64,000 nt of DNA, taken from positions 682,001 to 746,000 of the forward strand of contig NZ_FOIB01000001.1 of assembly GCF_900111765.1 (NCBI RefSeq), given 5' to 3'. The position numbers were made by a program, and so were the translations under genes. The notes under the pieces are model-generated. The model ran no database searches. It saw only the letters and a program-made list of their open reading frames with translations, and was not told where the DNA came from. The DNA is from Myxococcus fulvus. GTDB taxonomy: Bacteria > Myxococcota > Myxococcia > Myxococcales > Myxococcaceae. Of this stretch, positions 35,734-60,383 are shown piece by piece. The number at the start of each line of letters is the position of its first letter. Positions within the stretch are counted from its first letter, which is position 1.

Positions 35734-35793
35734 GACGTGCGGGGCAGGGGTCGGGCTGGCGCAGTGACGCGAGGTGTCGGAGGCTCGCGCGGA

Positions 35794-35824
35794 CAGTCCC
35801 ACTGTGTCGTGGACAGTGGGGCTG
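35794..35824 (+). terminator. Hairpin after the RapA-like gene
   Basis: CAGTCCCACTGT (35794-35805) pairs with ACAGTGGGGCTG (35813-35824) over 12 positions, one of them a G-T wobble, around a seven-base loop. It lies 60 bases past the stop. No T run follows. Confidence 0.55.
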
Positions 35825-35849
35825 GGTGCCGAATTTGGCTACGGTCCAG

Positions 35850-35878
35850 TTGACCGATTCCTCAATCAACAAGATTCA
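35850..35878 (+). promoter_or_regulatory. Promoter candidate for the pseudopilin operon
   Basis: TTGACC (35850-35855) and GATTCA (35873-35878) are 17 bases apart in AT-richer sequence. A start near 35884 would leave a leader of about ten bases before the ATG at 35895. Confidence 0.35.
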
Positions 35879-35894
35879 GGGAATTGGAAGGTGT

Positions 35895-36689
35895 ATGCTT
35901 CCCCGCGCCATTTCACCCACATCCAGGCAGTCCGGACAGGCAGCGGTGGAAGCGGCGCTGACGCTCCCGCTGGTGGTGTTCCTGGTGTTGGGGACGCTGC
36001 AGCTCTTCATGATGCTGCAGGCGCGAATCCTGGCGCAGGTGGCGGTGTACCGGGCGGTGCGGGCTGGCAGCCTCAACCACGCGGACTGCCTGCCGATGAT
36101 GCACGCGGCGATGGTGACGATGCTGCCGTCGGTGGTGCGCACGGACAGCCCGCGGGCGCTGGCGGACGCGTTCCGGGTGCGGCGGGACAACGAGTACCGG
36201 GTGACCAGCTCCTACGGGAACCTGTTCCGGGGCCCCATGGTGGAGATCGTCCGCGACTCGCCGGACGCGGCGTGGGTGCAGTCGCTCGCCTTCAACGAGG
36301 ATTTGCTGTTCGACCAGGCCACGGACAGCGACGCGGCGCTCGACAACCGCACGTTGGAGATCCGCATGGTGGCCTGGTACTACATGCGCATCCCCTTCGC
36401 GAACTGGGTGATGAGCCGGATGTTCCTGGCCCACTTCGGTCTGCGTCGCTACACCGCCACCAACCCGCTGATGCCGGCGCAGAAGCAGTCGGACTGGTGG
36501 AACGACGAGGCGCCGCCCCTGGGTCCGGATGACTGGCCCGGTGGCGCGCTCGACGAGCGCATGGTGTCGTGGAGCCAGCAGGGCCACTTCGTCTTCCCCA
36601 TCCAGGTCCACGCGGCGATGCGGATGATGACGCCGGTGATGGCCCAGAACTTCCCGCGAGGCGCCGAATGTCCCGTCACCGGCTTCTGA
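35895..36689 (+). CDS. TadE-like pseudopilin
   Basis: A 264-residue protein, ATG 35895 preceded by GGAAGG. It has a short basic N-terminus, then GQAAVEAALTLPLVVFLVLG, a hydrophobic helix with Glu five residues after the glycine, the pattern cut by prepilin peptidase in Tad pseudopilins. The rest is a larger periplasmic domain without a known family, with few cysteines. TadE/F proteins are minor pilins for the tight-adherence or Flp pilus. This opens a tightly packed operon with two further TadE/G-like genes and a secreted repeat protein. Confidence 0.8.
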   Translation: MLPRAISPTSRQSGQAAVEAALTLPLVVFLVLGTLQLFMMLQARILAQVAVYRAVRAGSLNHADCLPMMHAAMVTMLPSVVRTDSPRALADAFRVRRDNEYRVTSSYGNLFRGPMVEIVRDSPDAAWVQSLAFNEDLLFDQATDSDAALDNRTLEIRMVAWYYMRIPFANWVMSRMFLAHFGLRRYTATNPLMPAQKQSDWWNDEAPPLGPDDWPGGALDERMVSWSQQGHFVFPIQVHAAMRMMTPVMAQNFPRGAECPVTGF

Positions 36690-48216: not shown

Positions 48217-50385
48217 ATGGAAGTCCTGCCTACCTTGCGCCGCTCGCTCATCGTCGCGCTGGCCCTGCTGCTGACGGCCTGTCCTCGTACCTCCCGCACT
48301 CCGTCCGGTGGCACCACGGGCGAGGACGTGCCCACGGGGGACCCGTTCCCGAAGAAGCCCGCCATCGAGGTGCGCAAGGACGCGTCCGCGGACGCGGCGC
48401 TCGCCCAGGCGCGGCAGACGGCCCAGGCCACGCCGGACAAGAAGCAGGCCGCGGAGGCCTACCTGTCCGTGCGCAAGGCGTACCCGGCGACGACGGCGGG
48501 CCAGGACGCGCTCTACCAGGCGGGTGTCCTGTTCTTCGAGTCCAAGGACTACGTCAACGCGCGCAAGTCCTTCAACGAGCTGCTCTTCGAGAACCCGCTC
48601 TACACCCAGGCCGAGGACGCCAAGCGCAAGCTGGCGCTGTCCGCCATGGAGGTGGGCGCGTACCGGGACGCGTACCAGACGCTGTCGAGCCTCGCCGAGC
48701 GCGCCGAGGGCGCCGAGAAGGAGCAGCTGCTGCGTGACGCGGCGCGCGCCGCCGAGGGCGCGGGCCTGTACGGCCAGTCGCTGACGATGGCGGTGGAGGA
48801 GGCGGGGCAGGCGAAGACGCAGGCGGAGCGTGACGCCGCGGTGGCCCGGGTGGAGGCGCTGGTGGAGGGCCGCGCGGACTTCGTGGACATCGCGCGCGTG
48901 GCGGACGGGCTGTCGCCGTCCAACCCGGCCTGGCCCGTGCTCACCTTCAAGCTGGCGCGCGTCTACTACCACCTGCGCGAGTGGAACCGGCTGGAGGAGA
49001 CGCTCAACCGTTTCCTGGCGGAGGCGCCTGGCAGCCCGTTCGCGCCCCAGGCCCGGGAGCTGCTCGCGCGCGCCACGCGGCGCGTGGAGGCCAAGCCCCG
49101 CACGGTGGGCGTGCTGCTGCCCATGACGGGCCGCTACCAGCCCATCGGCGAGGCGGTGCTGCGCGGCATCCAGCTGGGCCTGGAGGGCAGCGACATCGAG
49201 CTGGTGGTGAAGGACACGCAGGGCGACGTGAACAAGACGGGCCAGGCGATGGAGCAGCTCGCCTTCGACGACGGCGCCATCGCGGTGCTGGGGCCGGTGC
49301 TCGCGGACGACTCCAAGCGCGCGGCGCTGGTGGCCGAGGAGCTCCAGGTGCCGCTGCTCACCATGACGCGGCAGGATGGCGTCACGGACCTGGGCGCGTA
49401 CGTGTTCCGCAACATGCTGACCAACGCCGCGCAGGCCAACGCCGTCGCGGACTACGCCATCAACGTGAAGGGCTACAAGAAGTTCGCCCTGCTGTACCCG
49501 AACATCCCGTACGGCGTGGAGCTGGCGAACGAGTTCTGGGACCAGGTGGTGGACCAGGGCGGCGTGGTGCGCGGCGCGGAGCGCTACTCGCATGACCAGA
49601 CGACGTTCACCCAGGAGGCCAAGAAGCTGGTGGGCCGCTACTACCTCGAGGACCGCGGCGACTACGTCGAGGGCGTGCGCGACTTGCAGGGTGAGAACCT
49701 GGACGCCTTCCGCCGCCGCAAGGCGCTGGAGAAGGTGAAGAGCGGCGTCGAGCCCATCATCGACTTCGAGGCCATCTTCATGCCGGACGACTGGCGGCGG
49801 GTGAGCCTGGTGGCCCCGGCGCTGGCGGTGGAGGACATCGTCACCAACGCGTGCGACCCGCGCGATTTGGAGCGCATCCGCAAGACGACGGGCAAGAAGG
49901 AGCTGAAGACGGTGACGCTCTTCGGCGCCAACCAGTGGAGCAGCCCCAAGGGGCGCTCGGGCCTGCCGGAGCTCATCGAGCGCGGCGGCAAGTTCGTCAC
50001 CTGCTCGGTGTACGTGGACGGCTTCTTCGTGGACTCGCAGCGGCCGGCCACGCGCAACTTCGTGCGCAAGTACCGCGAGTCGTACAAGCAGGAGACGGGC
50101 AAGGACCCGGGCCTCTTGGAGGCCATCGGCTACGACTCCGGCCGCATGCTCCGCCAGCTGGTGGAGAAGAAGGAGGGCGCTCCGCGCACGCGCGCGCAGA
50201 TGCGTGAGTCGCTCGCCAACCTGAAGGACTTCGACGGCGCCACCGGCCGCACCTCGTTCAACGACAAGCGCGAGGCCGTCAAGCAGCTCTTCCTCCTGTC
50301 CATCGACAACAAGGGCGTCACCGAAATCAACGTGGACAAGGAGCGCGAGAAGGCGGCCTCCGCGACGGGAGGCTCGGGTTCATGA
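48217..50385 (+). CDS. LpoA-like lipoprotein (TPR plus periplasmic-binding fold)
   Basis: The product is 722 residues from ATG 48217; an in-frame ATG 15 bases earlier is possible because neither has a good ribosome site. The leader ends in lipobox LLTAC. A TPR-like helical region (about 50-290) is followed by a type 1 periplasmic-binding domain starting VGVLLPMTGRYQPIGEAVLRG, with LAFDDGAIAVLGPVLADDS and YNIPYG-like strands. LpoA of gammaproteobacteria has exactly this order and activates penicillin-binding protein 1A from the outer membrane. Whether this protein does so is inference; similar proteins may also be amino-acid or ABC-type binding lipoproteins. The stop overlaps the next gene by ATGA. 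Confidence 0.82.
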   Translation: MEVLPTLRRSLIVALALLLTACPRTSRTPSGGTTGEDVPTGDPFPKKPAIEVRKDASADAALAQARQTAQATPDKKQAAEAYLSVRKAYPATTAGQDALYQAGVLFFESKDYVNARKSFNELLFENPLYTQAEDAKRKLALSAMEVGAYRDAYQTLSSLAERAEGAEKEQLLRDAARAAEGAGLYGQSLTMAVEEAGQAKTQAERDAAVARVEALVEGRADFVDIARVADGLSPSNPAWPVLTFKLARVYYHLREWNRLEETLNRFLAEAPGSPFAPQARELLARATRRVEAKPRTVGVLLPMTGRYQPIGEAVLRGIQLGLEGSDIELVVKDTQGDVNKTGQAMEQLAFDDGAIAVLGPVLADDSKRAALVAEELQVPLLTMTRQDGVTDLGAYVFRNMLTNAAQANAVADYAINVKGYKKFALLYPNIPYGVELANEFWDQVVDQGGVVRGAERYSHDQTTFTQEAKKLVGRYYLEDRGDYVEGVRDLQGENLDAFRRRKALEKVKSGVEPIIDFEAIFMPDDWRRVSLVAPALAVEDIVTNACDPRDLERIRKTTGKKELKTVTLFGANQWSSPKGRSGLPELIERGGKFVTCSVYVDGFFVDSQRPATRNFVRKYRESYKQETGKDPGLLEAIGYDSGRMLRQLVEKKEGAPRTRAQMRESLANLKDFDGATGRTSFNDKREAVKQLFLLSIDNKGVTEINVDKEREKAASATGGSGS

Positions 50386-52007
50386 GGGGTGGGGTGGGGC
50401 TGCTGGCGGCGGCGCTGCTGGCGGCGGGCGGTGGTGGGTGCGCGCACGGGGTCGCGACGCTGCCTCCGGACGTGGTGTCCCGGCTGGACGAGACGCCGGG
50501 CGCCTATGTCACGGGCGCGACGGCGGGGCTGGGCAAGGGCGCGGTCCTCAACCGGACGGACTTCATCTGGGGCCTGGACTTCTCGCCCCGGCAGCGGCGC
50601 GTGGCGTACACGCGGCTGGGCTCGCGCTCGTACTTCCTGACGCTGTGGGCGCTGGAGACGCCGCCCCGGAAGCTGGGCGACCCGGCCATCAATCCGTACG
50701 AGTTCGACGTGGAGGGCGTGGCCTTCTCGCCGGATGGCAGCCTGGTCGCCACCGCGGGGCGTGACGGCGCGGTGCGCCTGTTCGACGCGGCCACGGGCGA
50801 GCCCAGGGGCGTGCGCGCCACCGAGGAGCCGCTGTCCGTCGTGGCCTTCCACCCCGAGGGCAAGTGGCTGGTGGCGGGCGGCGTGAAGGGCCTGCTCACG
50901 GTGCTGGCGGTGCCGGACCTGGCCTATGTGTCCGAGGAGCGTGGGCACGAAGGGCCGGTGAGCGGCGTGGTCTTCTCTCCGGACGGGACGCTGTACTCGG
51001 GCGGCTGGGACAAGCACGTGCGCGCGTGGACGACCCAGGTCCAGTCGCTGTCGCCGCAGGAGGCGCGTGTGCGCTTCGAGCGGCGCGGTGGCTCGGCCAT
51101 CGTCGTGGGCGCGCTCAACGGCAAGACGCCGGTGGGCTTCACGCTGGATGCGCGCGTGCCCCAGGTGGTCATCACCCGCGAGGCGGCGACGCAGGCGGGC
51201 ATCGACCTGTCGCAGCTGAAGGACACGGTGGACGTGCCGGGCGCGCTGGGCACGACGCAGGCGCGGGTGGCGCGGGGACAGTCGCTGCGCTTCAAGTCGC
51301 TGGAGGTGCGCGACGTGGACGTGGCGGTGTGCGACGCGTGCGTGCCGCAGGGCTTCCAGGGCGTGCTGGGCGCGCCGTTCTCCGACAAGGTGGACGTGGC
51401 CTTCGACGAGCAGACGCTGGAGGCGCGCCTCGCGCTGAAGGGTGGGGCTCAGGCGGGCGCGGCGGTGGTGGACACGCTGGTGCTCGCGCGGCGTTCGGAC
51501 TTCACGTTCCCCGCGCATGTCAGCGACGTCACGGTGGACGCGCGGGGCGCCCGGCTGGGCGTGGGGTTGTCGGAGCAGAAGCCGGAGAGGGATCGCGCGG
51601 TGTACGAGCGCGAGCGCAAGGGCGTCGAGGAGCCTCGGGGCGACTTCAACGCGGGTGCGGTGGTGGACGCGGCGACGGGGAAGGTGCTGCACAAGTGGCC
51701 GGTGCACCGGGGCGTGGTGTCCACGGCGGCGATTTCGCCGGATGGGCGCTCGCTCGTGTCCGGGGGCTGGGACAAGCAGGTGCACCTCTTCACCGAGGGG
51801 CACGAGGCCGCGCGAGGCTCGTACGGCTTCGACTGGTCCGTGCGCCGCGTGCGCTTCAGCCCGGATGGGCGCAGGGTCGGCGTGGCCGCGTGGACGCCGC
51901 AGGTGGCCAGCAGCTCCGGTGAGAGCGACCCGTCCGCGGTGCTGCTCGACGTGGGCTACGTCGACGGCGCCACCGTGGTTCCTCCCGGGGCGCCCGTCGC
52001 CCCGTAG
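50382..52007 (+). CDS. WD40-repeat lipoprotein with inserted retropepsin-like domain
   Basis: A 541-residue protein whose ATG lies in the stop of the LpoA-like gene. A short leader ends near Cys20, a likely lipidation site though the preceding residues are all glycine. WD40-type blades with FSPDG or SPDG turns occur before residue 225 (VEGVAFSPDGSLVATAG, VSGVVFSPDGTLYSGGWDKHVRAW) and after residue 370 (TAAISPDGRSLVSGGWDK, RRVRFSPDGRRVG). Between them, about 232-350, is a domain like the retropepsin-type aspartic protease: VGFTLDARVPQVVIT, TQAGIDL, then FQGVLGAPFSDKVDVAFD. The catalytic D-T/S-G is replaced by D-A-R at 256-258. It is probably non-catalytic and binds a partner. Confidence 0.75.
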   Translation: MRGGVGLLAAALLAAGGGGCAHGVATLPPDVVSRLDETPGAYVTGATAGLGKGAVLNRTDFIWGLDFSPRQRRVAYTRLGSRSYFLTLWALETPPRKLGDPAINPYEFDVEGVAFSPDGSLVATAGRDGAVRLFDAATGEPRGVRATEEPLSVVAFHPEGKWLVAGGVKGLLTVLAVPDLAYVSEERGHEGPVSGVVFSPDGTLYSGGWDKHVRAWTTQVQSLSPQEARVRFERRGGSAIVVGALNGKTPVGFTLDARVPQVVITREAATQAGIDLSQLKDTVDVPGALGTTQARVARGQSLRFKSLEVRDVDVAVCDACVPQGFQGVLGAPFSDKVDVAFDEQTLEARLALKGGAQAGAAVVDTLVLARRSDFTFPAHVSDVTVDARGARLGVGLSEQKPERDRAVYERERKGVEEPRGDFNAGAVVDAATGKVLHKWPVHRGVVSTAAISPDGRSLVSGGWDKQVHLFTEGHEAARGSYGFDWSVRRVRFSPDGRRVGVAAWTPQVASSSGESDPSAVLLDVGYVDGATVVPPGAPVAP

Positions 52008-52080: not shown

Positions 52081-52773
52081 TCAGTAGTTGAAGAAGATGT
52101 GCTCGCGGGGCACGCCGCGCTCACGCAGCGCCTCGATGACGCCCTTGGACATGCCGGGTTGTCCGCAGACGAAGGCGCGGGCGTCCGCGACGGCCTCTTC
52201 GCCCAGGTGCGTCTGCACGTAGCCGGTGAGCCCCTGCCAGCCGCTGGCGCCGGGCTGGCTGACGGTGCGCACCACCTGCACGCCGCCCTCCTCCCACGTG
52301 TGCAGCTCGCCCTGGTACGCGAAGGCCCCGGGCGTGCGCGCGCCGAAGTAGAGCTTCACGCGGCCGAAGAGCGCGCGGTCCCGGCGCACGGTGGCGATGA
52401 CGGGCCGGATGGCGGAGATGCCGGAGCCGGTGGCGAACAGCAGCACGTCATGCCCGCGCGCGCGCTCCACGGGGAAGCCCTTGCCCTCGGGCGCGGACAC
52501 CTGCACCCGCGCGCCGAGCGGCAGACGGATGAGCGCGTCGGGCAGCGGGCTGCCGTCCTTGAGCAGGAACTCCCAGCGAAGCCCCTGGGCCTCGGGCGGG
52601 GAGGCGATGGCGAAAATCCCCGGCTGCAGCCCGGGCAGGCTCATCCGGACGTACTGGCCGGGGTGCGCGTGGGTTCCCACCAGGGGTGTGCCCTGGATGT
52701 CGAGCACGAGGTCGGTGAGCCCATCGGCTGCGGGGGTACGGGCGGTGACGGTGGCCGGATGCCAGTCGGGCAT
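52081..52773 (-). CDS. Ferredoxin-NADP reductase-like flavoprotein
   Basis: A 230-residue enzyme from ATG 52773. The FAD-binding region has GQYVRMSL and FAIASPP, equivalent to the family's RxYS block with a changed Tyr context. The NAD(P)-binding region has LLFATGSGISAIRPVI (about 110-125), and the C-terminus ends in VPREHIFFNY with the terminal aromatic. CGQPGMSKG gives the second nucleotide-binding motif. This makes it an electron-transfer flavoprotein of the FNR superfamily, with no iron-sulphur domain. Its electron partner is not adjacent. It is divergent from the transglycosylase-like gene by 58 bases. Confidence 0.85.
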   Translation of the reverse strand: MPDWHPATVTARTPAADGLTDLVLDIQGTPLVGTHAHPGQYVRMSLPGLQPGIFAIASPPEAQGLRWEFLLKDGSPLPDALIRLPLGARVQVSAPEGKGFPVERARGHDVLLFATGSGISAIRPVIATVRRDRALFGRVKLYFGARTPGAFAYQGELHTWEEGGVQVVRTVSQPGASGWQGLTGYVQTHLGEEAVADARAFVCGQPGMSKGVIEALRERGVPREHIFFNY

Positions 52774-52831
52774 GGTGAGTGCGGTTCTAACCCGTGTGTC
52801 GGGCGCGTGCTGCCCCTGGTAGCCTGGGGCG

Positions 52832-53602
52832 GTGAAGAGTCTCTTGTGGATAATCCTGTTCATGCTCGGCCTGGCCGGCGTGCTCATTCCGCTGACGTAT
52901 CTCTATACGGCCAGCAAGCTGCCCCAGCTCGAGAGTGAGTTCGACGTCGAGAAGCTGCTCAAGCACAGCATCGAAGGCGAGCGGATGAGCCTGCGCGCGG
53001 GCCAGTTCGAGCGCAACCCGCGCCCCATCACCTTCAACCGCCCGGACTTCTCCCGGCTGCCCAAGGACCTGGTGGCGCTCTACATCCGCCACATGGACTG
53101 CCCGCGCTACTTCCAGACGCCGCGCGAGGACGGCGCGGCCTGGGCCTGGCGCCTGTTCGTGGGCGCCACGGTGGGCTCGTCCCCGCCGGGCGAGGGCGCC
53201 TGTGAGCGGCTGTTGGCCATGCGCATCGCCCAGGCCCTGGGCATCTCCGGCAAGCTGGAGCTGACGGTCGCCGCGCACCGGCTGCACACCTTCATGCAGA
53301 AGGACCAGCTCATCGCGTACGACCTGGCCATCCTCTACTTCGAGCGCGGCATCGTCGGCGTGGAGGACGCGGCCTTCCGGCTCTTCAAGAAGGAGCTCAA
53401 CGAGCTGCAGCTCCAGGAGTTCGCCGAGCTGCAGCTCGCGCTGCCGCCGTTCTACCGCTACTGGGAGATCCGCCAGTGCAAGAACCCCACGGTGCTGCGG
53501 CAGGACCGCGACACGCTGCTGGGGGATTTGGCGGGGTGGAAGCTGGTGAGCGAGGACCGCGCGCGCAACGCGACGTCCCAGAAGCTGGGCTGCATGGAGT
53601 GA
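52832..53602 (+). CDS. Membrane protein resembling an inactive GT51 transglycosylase
   Basis: A 256-residue protein from GTG 52832 with a single N-terminal helix (LLWIILFMLGLAGVLIPLTYLY) and the bulk outside. The body follows the order of the GT51 peptidoglycan glycosyltransferase domain: LPKDLVALYIRHMD..RYF (about 76-94) at the place of the E-D-x-x-F motif, then AAHRLHTFMQKDQLIAYDLA, LYFERGIVGVEDAAFRLFKK, and LQLQEFAELQLALPPFYRYW. The catalytic Glu of motif 1 is Met88 and the GxSTxTQQ loop reads PGEGACERLL, so both catalytic features are lost. I infer a pseudoenzyme that could regulate cell-wall synthesis; no database comparison was possible. Confidence 0.72.
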   Translation: MKSLLWIILFMLGLAGVLIPLTYLYTASKLPQLESEFDVEKLLKHSIEGERMSLRAGQFERNPRPITFNRPDFSRLPKDLVALYIRHMDCPRYFQTPREDGAAWAWRLFVGATVGSSPPGEGACERLLAMRIAQALGISGKLELTVAAHRLHTFMQKDQLIAYDLAILYFERGIVGVEDAAFRLFKKELNELQLQEFAELQLALPPFYRYWEIRQCKNPTVLRQDRDTLLGDLAGWKLVSEDRARNATSQKLGCME

Positions 53603-53638: not shown

Positions 53639-55705
53639 TCAGTCCTTCTTGATGAACATCGTCTCCAGGAGGTCGATGCCCTGCTGGACATTGCGTAAGG
53701 CGTTGGCGTCGTCGGCGTCCTTGGCGGCGATGCGGAGGTTGTCCAGCCGATTCAGCATGGCGGTCGGGCTCGTCACCCGCTTCTGCGCCAGGAGCTCGGG
53801 CAGGGCTTCCTCCAACGATTCGATGCGCTTGAGCACCTTGGCGCGCGACTGCGGGTCCAAGGGGAGGGCGGCGGTCTTGCTCGTGCTCGAGGAGCGTCCC
53901 GTGCGCGCCACTGTCTCAGGCGCCTCGGTGGAGGAACCGACCTCGCGCGAGGACTTCGCGAGGGCCAGCGATTTCTTCGTGGCGCTTGCCGAGCCCGCGG
54001 ACCCCGCTTCGGACTCGGACGGGGCCACGACGGGTGCGCTCGCGGCGGCCAGCGGCGCACCGGACTGACCGGTCGCGCCCGCGACGGTGGGAGCCTGCTG
54101 CGCGGTGGAGCCCGCGGGATTCTGGCCATCACCGACGGCCGAGGTTCCGACGGCGCCGCCCACCCCAGGGACCTGCTGCCCCGCGTGGGCTTCGTCCACA
54201 GGGGCCGCGGCGAGCGGTCCGGTGCCAGCTTCGTTCCGCGCAGTCCCGGCGAGATGCCCGTCGCCGGCTTCGTTCCGCGCAGTCCCGGCGAGATGCCCGT
54301 CGCCGGCTTCGTTCCGCGTCGCCACGGCGAGACGCTCGGCTTCGTCCTGGGCCTCTGCGGCGAGACGCCCGGCGCGAGCATCCACCTCGCGCTGGGGCGT
54401 GAGCGGCACGGCGCGAGCCGGCTCGCGCAGGATGAACGCCGCGGCGCCGGCGAGCAGCAGCGCGGCCGTCCCCACCGCCACGGCCACGGGCAGGTGCTTG
54501 CGCGCGGGCGCATCCAGCACCGCCGTCGGCCGCAGGCCCCGCTCCGCGCCCAGCTCCGACGGCGCGGGCACGGGCGCGGTGGGCCTGCGCGAGGCGGCGT
54601 CGTCCGGGACGGACGGCTTCGGCTGCGTGGGGGCGAGGGCGCTCGCGTTGGAGTGCGTGGTGGAGCGCAGGGAGCGGCGCAGCTTGTGGAGCTGCTGCCG
54701 GAGCGCATCCGCCGAGTTGGGGCGCGCCTCCGGGTCCTTGGTCAGCATCTGCAGGATGAACGCATCCAGCGCGGGCGGCAGGTCGGGGACGAACTCCGAC
54801 GGCCGGGGCGGACGCGCCTCCACGTGCTTCATCAGCAGGTCCACCGGCGAGCTGCCGATGAAGGGCAGCCGCCCCGTCACCATCTCGAACGTGACGACGC
54901 CCAGTGCGTAGAGGTCGGTCATCGGACCCACCTCCTGGCCTCGCGCCTGCTCCGGGGCCATGTACTCCGGCGTGCCCACCACCATGTCCGTGCGCGTCTG
55001 CGCGGTACGGCCGGTGGGGCCCTGGCCCCGCTTGGCGAGGCCGAAGTCCAGCACCTTCACGTACCGCGAGCCGTCCGGCTGGTGGACCATGAAGATGTTG
55101 CTCGGCTTCAAGTCCCGGTGCACCACGCCCGCGCCATGCGCCGCGGCCAGCGCCGCCAGCACCTCGTCCAGGATGGGCAGCGCCTCCAGCACGGGCAGCC
55201 GCGTCTTCTCCGAGAGCACCGCGTCGAGCGGCTGGCCCTCCAGGTACTCCATGACGATGTACTGCCGGCCGTCGGGCACCTGGCCGAAGCCGAAGATGTC
55301 GATGATGCCGCGGTGGCGGATGGCGTTCACCGCGCGCGCCTCGGCGAGCAGCCGCTCCACCTGCTCGGTGGAGTGCGCCAGCTCCGGGCGCAGCACCTTC
55401 ACCGCCACGCGCTTGCCGATGAGCGGCTGGATGCCCTCGTACACCAGCCCCATGCCGCCCACGCCCACCCGAGCGCGCAGCTCGTACTCACCAAGCTTCA
55501 GGCCGATGAGCGGGTCCCTCATGGACTCCGCCGAGGCCTCCAGGGTGCTCTGCACGATGACCTTCGGCTCGTCGGCCTCCGGCGATGCCGGTGCCGGCGG
55601 TGGGACGTGGAACGCAGCGAGTGCCACGGTGCCATCCCGCGGGCACACACCGGTGTCGGCGGGGACGGGAAGACCACAGGTTTCGCAGTTCAGCTCGGAA
55701 GCCAT
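53639..55705 (-). CDS. Membrane Ser/Thr protein kinase with repeat tail
   Basis: A 688-residue eukaryotic-like kinase from ATG 55705. The N-terminus has a small zinc-ribbon-like segment (CETCGLPVPADTGVC). The kinase domain (about 72-330) has VGVGGMGLVYEG, VAVKVL, HRDLKPSNI, LDFGLAK and YMAPEQ intact, so it should be active. A membrane helix (LPVAVAVGTAALLLAGAAAFI, about 425-445) separates it from a Glu/Ala/Ser-rich periplasmic tail with 13-residue repeats and a final helical region ending in LETMFIKKD. No PASTA or other known sensor is present. Substrates are unknown. Confidence 0.88.
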   Translation of the reverse strand: MASELNCETCGLPVPADTGVCPRDGTVALAAFHVPPPAPASPEADEPKVIVQSTLEASAESMRDPLIGLKLGEYELRARVGVGGMGLVYEGIQPLIGKRVAVKVLRPELAHSTEQVERLLAEARAVNAIRHRGIIDIFGFGQVPDGRQYIVMEYLEGQPLDAVLSEKTRLPVLEALPILDEVLAALAAAHGAGVVHRDLKPSNIFMVHQPDGSRYVKVLDFGLAKRGQGPTGRTAQTRTDMVVGTPEYMAPEQARGQEVGPMTDLYALGVVTFEMVTGRLPFIGSSPVDLLMKHVEARPPRPSEFVPDLPPALDAFILQMLTKDPEARPNSADALRQQLHKLRRSLRSTTHSNASALAPTQPKPSVPDDAASRRPTAPVPAPSELGAERGLRPTAVLDAPARKHLPVAVAVGTAALLLAGAAAFILREPARAVPLTPQREVDARAGRLAAEAQDEAERLAVATRNEAGDGHLAGTARNEAGDGHLAGTARNEAGTGPLAAAPVDEAHAGQQVPGVGGAVGTSAVGDGQNPAGSTAQQAPTVAGATGQSGAPLAAASAPVVAPSESEAGSAGSASATKKSLALAKSSREVGSSTEAPETVARTGRSSSTSKTAALPLDPQSRAKVLKRIESLEEALPELLAQKRVTSPTAMLNRLDNLRIAAKDADDANALRNVQQGIDLLETMFIKKD
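54229..54318 (-). repeat. 39-bp in-frame repeats in the kinase tail
   Basis: Two identical 39-base units (54229-54267 and 54268-54306) plus a diverged third encode RNEAGDGHLAGTA-type peptide in the periplasmic tail. Perfect identity suggests recent duplication and a length-variable stalk. Confidence 0.8.
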
Positions 55706-55822
55706 CTCGGGAAGAAAGGCCAGCGTAGCAAGACCGGGAGGGGGGCGCGATGGGCTTCGGACCTGGGTGCAGGGCGAGCGTTCAGGCGACGCACACCCCA
55801 AGTGTCCCCGACGCCCCTCCAG

Positions 55823-58622: not shown

Positions 58623-60383
58623 TCAGCGCCGAGGCCGCTCCGACGGAGCGGGGCGGATCTGCGTTTTCTCGGAGCCGCCCTGGGGCTCGGCCGTCGCGCC
58701 CGTGTCCTCGTCCTCGTCCTCGACGTGGGCGGGCATGGACGGCGGGGGCCTGCGCGCGGCGAGCGCGGGGCGGGCCCCGGGAGGCGGAGGCCTGGGCGGC
58801 GGCGTGCCTGGGCGACGCGGCGGCGGAGGCCGGCCCGCGTCGGTGAGCAGCTCCTCGTCCACCTCCACCTTGGCCTCGGCAGCGTGGTCCATGCCGCTGG
58901 CGAAGGGGCTGCGGGTGGGCGGCGGCGTCTTGTCGTCGTCGCTCTCGGGAGGAGGCGGCGGGCGCGCGGCGGGAGGTCGGGCGGCGGCCTGTCCCGCGGG
59001 CGGCGTGGCGCTGGCCGCCCTGGGCGGCGCGGCCGGCGTCGCGGGCTTCCCAGTGGGCAGGTTCGCGGGCACCTGCACCTGCACGGGCGCGGCGGCGGGC
59101 GCGGGCGCTCCACCGGCCTTGGCGGCCTTGGCCTCGCGCGCGTTCTGCTTGAGCTTCTCCTCGAAGGCGGACCACTCCTGCTTGAAGTGCGCGGGGTCCG
59201 GCTGTCCCTCCTCGCGGTGCTTCAGCGAGGGCGCCCACCGCACGGTGTACGACTCACCGGCGTGGAACGTGGGCGGAGGCGGCAGGCCGTAGGTGGCCGG
59301 GTCGAAGAACGAGTCCTCCAGGTCGTTGAAGCCGTACGCCTTCGCCTTGGCGACGAAGTTGGGGATGATGCCCGTGGGCGCGTGGTAGCCGAGGATGTGG
59401 TCGTCCTCGTCCTTGGCCACCGGCGTGAAGACGAAGATGTCCTGCGTGCGGTAGTCGCCCTTCTCGTTGAGCGGCAGCACCTCCGACAGGGCAATCGTCT
59501 TGCGGCTGCCGTCGTGCAGACGCTCGCAGCAGATGACGAAGTTGATGGCGCTGGCCACCTGCGCGCGCACGGCCACCATGGGCAGCTCCACGCCGGACAT
59601 GAGGCACAGCGACTCGATGCGGCGCAGCGTGTCCGTGGGCGTGTTGGCGTGCGTGGTGGCCAGCGAGCCGCCGTGGCCCGTGTTCATCGCCTGCATCAGG
59701 TGGAACGCCTCGCCGCCGCGCACCTCGCCGACCACGATTCGGTCCGGACGCAGACGCAGCGCCGAGTGCAGCAGGTCTCCCATGTCCACGCCGCCCTTGC
59801 CGAACTTGTCCGGCGGACGGCTCTCGAAGGCGACCACGTGCGTCTGGTTGAGCTGGAGCTCGGCCGAGTCCTCGATGGTGAGGATGCGCTCCTCGTCGGG
59901 GATGAGCGACGAGACGATGTTGAGCAGCGTCGTCTTGCCGGAGCCCGTGCCGCCGGCCACCAGCATGTTGAGCTTGGTGGCGATGCCCGCCTCGATGAGC
60001 CGCGCCATCTGCGGCGTCAGCGAGCCGAACTTCAGGAGCGACTGGACGGTCAGCTTCTCCTTGAAGAACTTGCGGATGGAGATGGTGGTGCCGCGGCGGG
60101 CAATCGGCGGAATCACCACGTGGATGCGGCTGCCGTCCGGCAGGCGCGCGTCCAGGCGCGGGCGCTCGTCGGTGAGCATGCGGCCGACGAACTGGGCCAT
60201 GTTGCGCGCGGCGCCGATGAGGCCTTCCTCGGTGAAGGCCGCGTCCGTCTTCGTCAGTCGGCCCTTCTTCTCGATCCACACGTCGGTGGGGCCGTTGATC
60301 ATGATCTCCGACACCGCCTCGTCGTCCAGATAGGGCAGGACGGGCTTGAGGAAGGCGCGGAGTGACTCGGTGTACATCGTCAT
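58623..60383 (-). CDS. cpaF: CpaF/TadA-type secretion ATPase with Pro-rich tail
   Basis: A 586-residue ATPase of the Tad/type IV pilus secretion family. It begins directly at the ATPase region (MTMYTESLRAFLKPVLPYLDDEAVSEIMINGPTDVWIE), with Walker A GGTGSGKTT, Walker B-type RIVVGEVRGGEAF and the GHGGSLATTHANT motif. The catalytic core ends near residue 350, followed by SYTVRWAPSLKHREEG and about 160 residues of Ala/Pro-rich sequence unusual for CpaF. No other Tad core gene is adjacent, although TadE/TadG-like genes lie at 35895-39161. It probably powers assembly of those pseudopilins or another filament. Confidence 0.88.
   Translation of the reverse strand: MTMYTESLRAFLKPVLPYLDDEAVSEIMINGPTDVWIEKKGRLTKTDAAFTEEGLIGAARNMAQFVGRMLTDERPRLDARLPDGSRIHVVIPPIARRGTTISIRKFFKEKLTVQSLLKFGSLTPQMARLIEAGIATKLNMLVAGGTGSGKTTLLNIVSSLIPDEERILTIEDSAELQLNQTHVVAFESRPPDKFGKGGVDMGDLLHSALRLRPDRIVVGEVRGGEAFHLMQAMNTGHGGSLATTHANTPTDTLRRIESLCLMSGVELPMVAVRAQVASAINFVICCERLHDGSRKTIALSEVLPLNEKGDYRTQDIFVFTPVAKDEDDHILGYHAPTGIIPNFVAKAKAYGFNDLEDSFFDPATYGLPPPPTFHAGESYTVRWAPSLKHREEGQPDPAHFKQEWSAFEEKLKQNAREAKAAKAGGAPAPAAAPVQVQVPANLPTGKPATPAAPPRAASATPPAGQAAARPPAARPPPPPESDDDKTPPPTRSPFASGMDHAAEAKVEVDEELLTDAGRPPPPRRPGTPPPRPPPPGARPALAARRPPPSMPAHVEDEDEDTGATAEPQGGSEKTQIRPAPSERPRR

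Follow-up and report, generated by a model that had tools for sequence, protein, structure and literature searches.

A gene in the DNA of Myxococcus fulvus, which we call PGT (for pseudo-GT51), appears to encode a descendant of the GT51 peptidoglycan polymerases from which the catalytic motifs of that family have gone. Our preferred reading, to which we assign a probability of about 0.55, is that PGT is a membrane-anchored pseudo-transglycosylase, non-catalytic and retained as a subunit for binding or scaffolding. It lies on the forward strand at 52832..53602 of the window, i.e., the whole stretch of 64,000 nucleotides that was analyzed (G000:C1:682001-746000, part of a 10.8-Mb genome), and unprefixed coordinates given below are those of the window unless a locus is named. 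The initial annotation, made from these letters alone, had described an apparent GT51 pseudoenzyme; what is new relative to it are four cysteines, the spread of the family, a nearby ATPase, and another family of degenerate GT51-like proteins.

An open reading frame was present at exactly 52832-53602 (+), encoding 256 amino acids plus a stop codon from a GTG start. The GC content at third codon positions was 0.96, which is a coding composition, and, judged by its own sequence, the gene was single-copy in the source genome. Relatives with 61-92% identity were carried by 16 named loci, from Myxococcus, Pyxidicoccus, Archangium, and Hyalangium. In the four nearest pairs tested (versus L002-L005), dN/dS was 0.13, 0.17, 0.20, and 0.27, whereas the same simple method gave 0.42, 0.55, and 0.77 versus the more distant L006, L013, and L016. 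A complete Myxococcus-type locus, with the same gene order and a PGT of 80% identity, was also found in L011 (BNCN01000008.1), labeled Comamonas sp. KCTC 72670; this assembly is probably mislabeled or contaminated.

Among the matches listed in a profile search, the PGT family occurred in 89 of the 147 genomes of the source class (88 long matches, plus one partial match at a contig edge in G050), i.e., in 85 of the 96 genomes of the source taxonomic family and in four of the 51 in the remainder of the class (G137, G139, G039, and G040). The search also covered 48 genomes that belong to the phylum but to other classes, and there no family-level matches (E of 4e-27 or better) were among those listed; the top matches in these genomes, down to 3.7e-17, were in open frames of the size of a penicillin-binding protein (PBP). 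PGT was absent, again among the matches listed, from 11 of the 96 genomes of the source taxonomic family. One of these was G042, where the locus was syntenic and the ATPase discussed below was present, with PGT cleanly missing between the kinase and reductase genes. Genome G128 had two family members, the second of which (G128:C265:5940-6668, L050) was 30% identical to that of the window and had a different neighborhood.

The initial annotation had proposed a profile search against GT51, and this was positive. The Pfam Transgly profile (PF00912) matched PGT at 1.4e-8 with 34.9 bits (cut-off 27), in a match confined to positions 85-157 of its 178, while PBP1A-type models of NCBIfam matched far below their cut-offs. 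When divergent relatives were compared with PF00912, L053 passed, and L048, L049, L050, L052, and L135 scored less than 27 bits. A profile made from 24 diverse PGT members matched the solved PBP1A and PBP2 chains of the PDB with E values from 9.7e-10 to 2.6e-6. When its profile was compared with one built from 32 genuine GT51 rows of related genomes, the family aligned over 240 columns with an E value of 2.2e-19, whereas control profiles (one reversed and five column-shuffled) gave values from 0.027 to 0.62.

The two halves of the protein did not contribute equally. Alone, the C-terminal half of PGT matched the GT51 profile at 1e-16, but with the N-terminal half the E value was 0.066, and the 15 columns that aligned were unrelated. 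When the columns of residues 71-137 were shuffled in their context, the score fell in all 40 trials, from 137.6 to a mean of 124.9 (maximum 135.7). The effect was less clear when residues 71-99 or 100-137 were shuffled separately, since four and eight of 40 trials, respectively, reached the real score, and there was no clear contribution from residues 35-70, for which six of 40 did so. With residues 1-34, which include the N-terminal helix, shuffling reduced the score from 137.6 to 113.7, and the real score was not reached in any of 40 trials. The membrane helix and an 'LP' segment of PGT also matched GT51. Thus, the claim that the sequence follows the GT51 fold block by block stood for the C-terminal half, but the N-terminal half was not recognized on its own and gained only modestly in context, so that the placement of motifs 1 and 2 rests on colinearity. 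We regard the GT51 ancestry of PGT as solid and, at the level of sequence comparison, secure, with the signal coming from the C-terminal half. AlphaFold2 models of the full protein (pLDDT 48) and of residues 60-256 (pLDDT 49), with 17 sequences each, were both poor.

These comparisons divide PGT into several segments, all on the forward strand. A hydrophobic helix near the N terminus (residues 4-27; 52841..52912) aligned with its counterpart, the membrane helix, in genuine GT51 proteins, and we read it as a single predicted membrane anchor. The recognizable C-terminal GT51 portion, covering the region of motifs 3-5 without the RKxxE glutamate, comprised residues 138-206 (53243..53449). It was followed by residues 207-256 (53450..53599), which resembled what follows GT51 in PBP1A-type proteins and carried Cys216 and Cys254. 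The long helix segment singled out in the initial annotation, KDQLIAYDLAILYFERG, was indeed present, and aligned with the GT51 sequence SKDEILxLYLNxIYFGxG.

The catalytic motifs had not survived. Motif 1, which we take to be ED..F with the catalytic Glu, was carried by the genuine GT51 rows together with G[AG]STxT[QM]Q and RKxxE; 31 of 32 rows fitted the patterns used, the exception being L071, whose LEDKRF was disallowed by the first pattern. The spacing from the catalytic Glu to the GGST block was 31 residues in 21 of 31 genuine rows, 36 in nine, and 32 in one. A spacing of 31 places the Glu position at residue 89 of PGT, which was Asp in the window protein, while a helix-anchored alignment places it at Met88. 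Residue 89 in 66 PGT sequences was Gly in 37, Glu in 16, Asp in eight, Ala in two, and Asn, Gln, or Arg in one each; the deep member L049 had Glu at the alternative position, 88. Because the residue at the Glu position varies among close relatives, it is not being kept as a catalytic residue. The Asp of the GT51 'ED' corresponded to an invariant Cys in the PGT family. At the position of motif 2, the window protein had GEGACERL and the family G-x-G-x-C-E, with G[AG]STxT[QM]Q absent, and the glutamate of motif 3 (RKxxE) was replaced by Leu144, with no conserved Glu there in the family.

The earlier description of a protein lacking the catalytic Glu therefore holds for the window protein (Asp89 or Met88), with the proviso that 16 of the 66 relatives have Glu there by the commonest spacing; the GxSTxTQQ loop, also said to be lacking, was absent from PGT. 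Profiles, alignments, and controls all bear out a protein that derives from GT51 and has lost its catalytic motifs, and the sequence evidence supports the view that PGT would be catalytically dead as a GT51 polymerase.

In place of the lost motifs, the family had acquired a conserved pattern of its own. Four cysteines, the only ones in the window protein, i.e., Cys90 (53099..53101), Cys124 (53201..53203), Cys216 (53477..53479), and Cys254 (53591..53593), were kept without exception in all 66 unique family sequences, 23 of which remained after thinning at 70% identity. The 66 were those unique over the first 240 residues, drawn from 109 hits covering at least 200 model positions; the copy in G050, being partial, was outside this set. 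Even the most distant members, L135 and L136, kept all four, whereas the 32 genuine GT51 rows had no cysteines at those four places. Other residues were nearly as constant, i.e., Arg51 (66 of 66), Arg107 (65 of 66), Glu99 (64 of 66), and Gly122 (64 of 66), although Glu99, plus Arg107 or the pattern near it, was not kept in L135 and L136, as read from their sequences. Glu99, Arg107, and Cys90 are part of a new conserved pattern, C90-P91...E99...G101...W104...R107, within residues 77-107 (53060..53152), a stretch that is colinear with GT51 motif 1 and whose homology is supported only in context. Residues 120-133 (53189..53230) are colinear with motif 2 (GGSTxTQQ), and here read G-[DE]-G-x-C-E. 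Mean column entropy was 1.59 bits in the motif-1-like stretch, 1.45 in the motif-2-like stretch, 1.45 in the motif-5 stretch, and 2.04 in the C-terminal linker.

A second family of degenerate GT51-like proteins, which we term group B (L189-L218), bears on how the cysteines may be paired. At E values of 1.6e-27 or better, it was matched in 32 of the 147 genomes of the class, with one copy in the genome of the window (G000:C4:622439-623158, L205); G105 (L102) contained tandem copies. Like PGT, these proteins were small and combined an N-terminal helix with the C-terminal half of GT51, motifs 1 and 2 being absent; unlike PGT, they lacked Cys90 and Cys124 and had, where motif 1 would be, a 'P.WPWT'-like segment. 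Among 32 unique group B sequences, both C-terminal cysteines were present in 22 and neither in eight, the split leaving out L218, which was cut short, and L217, in which the second Cys was shifted; because the sequences are related, independent gains or losses of cysteine are far fewer than 30. That the two cysteines are kept or lost together in group B supports a disulfide between Cys216 and Cys254 in PGT. A Cys90-Cys124 disulfide is proposed by exclusion and by colinearity; as neither residue ever varies, covariation gives no signal on their pairing. In a FastTree phylogeny of 89 sequences, PGT and group B formed clades with local support of 0.903 and 0.965, respectively, and fell together on one side of the genuine GT51 proteins with support of 0.864, although long branches could produce that arrangement. 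In the seven group B loci examined, we found no ATPase and no other PGT neighbors.

The gene most closely tied to PGT by position in deep lineages encodes a stand-alone TadA/CpaF-like secretion ATPase, found in the window on the reverse strand at 58626..60383. It scored 181.9 bits against the Pfam family T2SSE, far above the cut-off, and its best NCBIfam hit was TIGR03819 (TadA), at 278.7 bits versus a cut-off of 373.15. In L049 and L135, among the deepest members of the family, PGT was directly downstream of the ATPase gene on the same strand, and in L048 it was downstream of it across about 1.1 kb with two opposite-strand open frames that, by eye, look like an insertion element. The window ATPase was an orthologue of that in L049 (65% identity). 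In 21 of 37 PGT loci, including the window, the ATPase was inside the span retrieved, and in G048 and G076 it lay about 8.5 and 7 kb from PGT, respectively. With an orthologue cut set after the list was seen (at least 63% identity, versus at most 49%), the ATPase was present in 14 of 14 PGT-bearing but nine of 23 PGT-lacking genomes among 37 hand-chosen from the 147, a co-occurrence that is confounded by kinship; in seven of the 14 it was on another contig and thus unlinked. PGT is therefore tied to the ATPase by its position in deep lineages and by occurrence, yet the ATPase does not need PGT, since it also occurs in genomes without it, such as G042.

Genes for lipoproteins, one of which has several TIG domains (PF01833), adjoined the ATPase/PGT operon in deep lineages (L135, 8315-14596; L048, 254-4527; L049, 490-6043; L136, 656-5733 and beyond), and, by eye, were also next to the ATPase in the class outgroup G145 (L179). 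At 35781-36684 (+) in the window, 17 kb from PGT, was a gene for a TadE-like protein (PF07811, 5.7e-9); the two genes after it, to 39155, had by eye pilin-like N-terminal hydrophobic stretches and no Pfam hit. All three are possibly further Tad-like parts.

The immediate neighborhood of PGT, in the order DnaJ, LpoA-like lipoprotein, WD40 protein, reductase (on the opposite strand), and PGT, was widespread in the source taxonomic family. The reductase gene, for a ferredoxin-reductase-like NAD(P)H/flavin reductase (52081..52773, reverse strand), is head to head with PGT, the proposed starts being separated by 58 bp (52774-52831). The pairing is conserved, in that 39 of the 44 PGT-family loci examined had a match to the reductase. 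A Ser/Thr protein kinase gene (53639..55801, reverse strand) is convergent with PGT, and is a neighbor only. The lipoprotein encoded at 48217..50385 on the forward strand has TPR and periplasmic-binding-protein parts in an LpoA-like layout, but with 21.8 bits against PF04348 it did not pass the LpoA (LppC) cut-off of 28.8. In the WD40 protein (50382-52007, forward strand), a retropepsin-like Asp_protease_2 stretch, residues 243-333, lies between the WD40 parts; the catalytic motif of retropepsins is D[TS]G, and by eye this position reads DAR, so that this stretch may also be a dead enzyme.

What PGT might do can be put as follows. The ancestor would have been a GT51 peptidoglycan polymerase, either monofunctional or of the class A PBP type, and PGT, by its sequence, would no longer polymerize lipid II. 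Its domain would lie in the periplasm, held by a single membrane helix and stabilized by two disulfides, with Cys90-Cys124 pinning the former active-site cleft. It could bind, without carrying out any chemistry, a glycan strand, a lipid-linked precursor, or a partner protein, and would dock either a partner PBP or an envelope machine, for which the stand-alone TadA/CpaF-like ATPase is the most likely motor, at sites of peptidoglycan synthesis. On balance PGT is more probably a binding or scaffold protein than an enzyme. Against our reading, Cys90 and Cys124 are at the old active site by colinearity only, and both structure models are poor. A more elaborate version is unlikely but can be stated precisely: the disulfide-stapled protein might couple the Tad-type motor to the cell wall, its dead GT51 domain recognizing lipid II or nascent glycan and so marking a site of passage, with the old active site (C90, E99, R107, and C124) serving as the new ligand site. 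The initial annotation had suggested a regulator of peptidoglycan or polysaccharide synthesis, a role that PGT may conceivably have.

Several other explanations were weighed. The same conserved residues might form a new enzyme active site, or a site for a small ligand, on the GT51-derived scaffold, using E99, R107, R51, and the Cys90 and Cys124 loops. Constraint on the motif-1-like and motif-2-like stretches, which contain charged invariants, is about as strong as on the retained GT51 part, and the conservation of E99, R107, and R51 (64, 65, and 66 of 66) is that of a catalytic set. However, PGT matches no enzyme family in Pfam or NCBIfam except GT51, the two most distant members have lost E99 but kept the four cysteines, and the structure models are too poor to show a pocket, so that we find a new activity quite unlikely. 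PGT might instead regulate genuine class A PBPs, or serve them as an accessory subunit, by forming a pair with these proteins or with the nearby LpoA-like lipoprotein. A single membrane helix with a GT51-like C-terminal half resembles a PBP subunit, and there are four genuine GT51 genes in the genome of the window. The LpoA-like gene is 2.4 kb upstream of PGT, in an order conserved in the source taxonomic family, and in L052 such a gene is immediately upstream on the same strand. In addition, class A PBPs of M. xanthus regulate a hydrolase, according to the sections of PMC10475089 consulted, so that regulation of this type exists there. Set against this, LpoA-like proteins, which here score below the LppC cut-off, were found in 138 of the 147 class genomes irrespective of PGT, and a gene so nearly universal gives no evidence of a specific link. 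This set back the LpoA connection as the main explanation, and we consider an accessory role of this kind rather unlikely.

The N-terminal half invites the idea of a chimera, in which only the C-terminal half came from GT51 and the cysteine-bearing N-terminal half is an unrelated domain. The failure of that half to match GT51 by itself is what such an origin would give, but it raised the profile score in context (40 of 40 shuffles), residue 89 is 31 residues from Gly120, the commonest GT51 spacing, the membrane helix and 'LP' segment match GT51, and the models, although of low confidence, still place the helices in GT51 order. A chimeric origin is, accordingly, very unlikely in our estimation. 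Least credible of all is that PGT is a decaying gene without function: its absence from 11 of the 96 genomes listed above, including G042, is what decay might produce, but this is contradicted by purifying selection between near relatives and by the four cysteines, unchanged in all 66 sequences although identities fall to about 30%.

We therefore continue with the non-catalytic binding or scaffold subunit as the preferred account of PGT. Many enzyme families include catalytically dead members with regulatory roles. Our literature search, with most subscription journals and preprints outside its coverage, found no description of a pseudoenzyme of GT51 or of any peptidoglycan glycosyltransferase. 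The sections of PMC10475089 consulted report that the three class A PBPs of M. xanthus are dispensable, singly and together, and that with moenomycin 15.3% of cells of the triple mutant still lose rod shape, which was ascribed there to nonspecific toxicity. It is conceivable that a moenomycin-binding pseudo-GT51 contributes to this residual 15.3%. If our reading holds, M. xanthus would offer a tractable case, since its class A PBPs are dispensable, for learning what a transglycosylase fold does without chemistry, and attention would also be drawn to a stand-alone Tad-type ATPase without a known partner.

Two known systems provide the closest comparisons. The PGT-linked ATPase is, like KilF of the Kil/Tad apparatus of M. 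xanthus, of the broad T2SSE/TadA type. The part of PMC8460266 consulted places KilF beside FHA, secretin, and prepilin-peptidase genes. The window ATPase differs from the ATPase of the Kil/Tad-like cluster, which is a 43% identical gene elsewhere in the genome that, read by eye, adjoins genes of those same three kinds; membership of PGT in the Kil predation system was rejected because the window ATPase is distinct from the ATPase of this Tad/Kil-like cluster. Compared with GT51 itself (PF00912), i.e., with PBP1A-type class A PBPs and monofunctional MtgA-type enzymes, PGT is without motifs 1 and 2, the glutamate of motif 3, and a transpeptidase domain, and has four invariant cysteines, but shares with them the N-terminal helix, the C-terminal half of the domain, and the linker that follows it.
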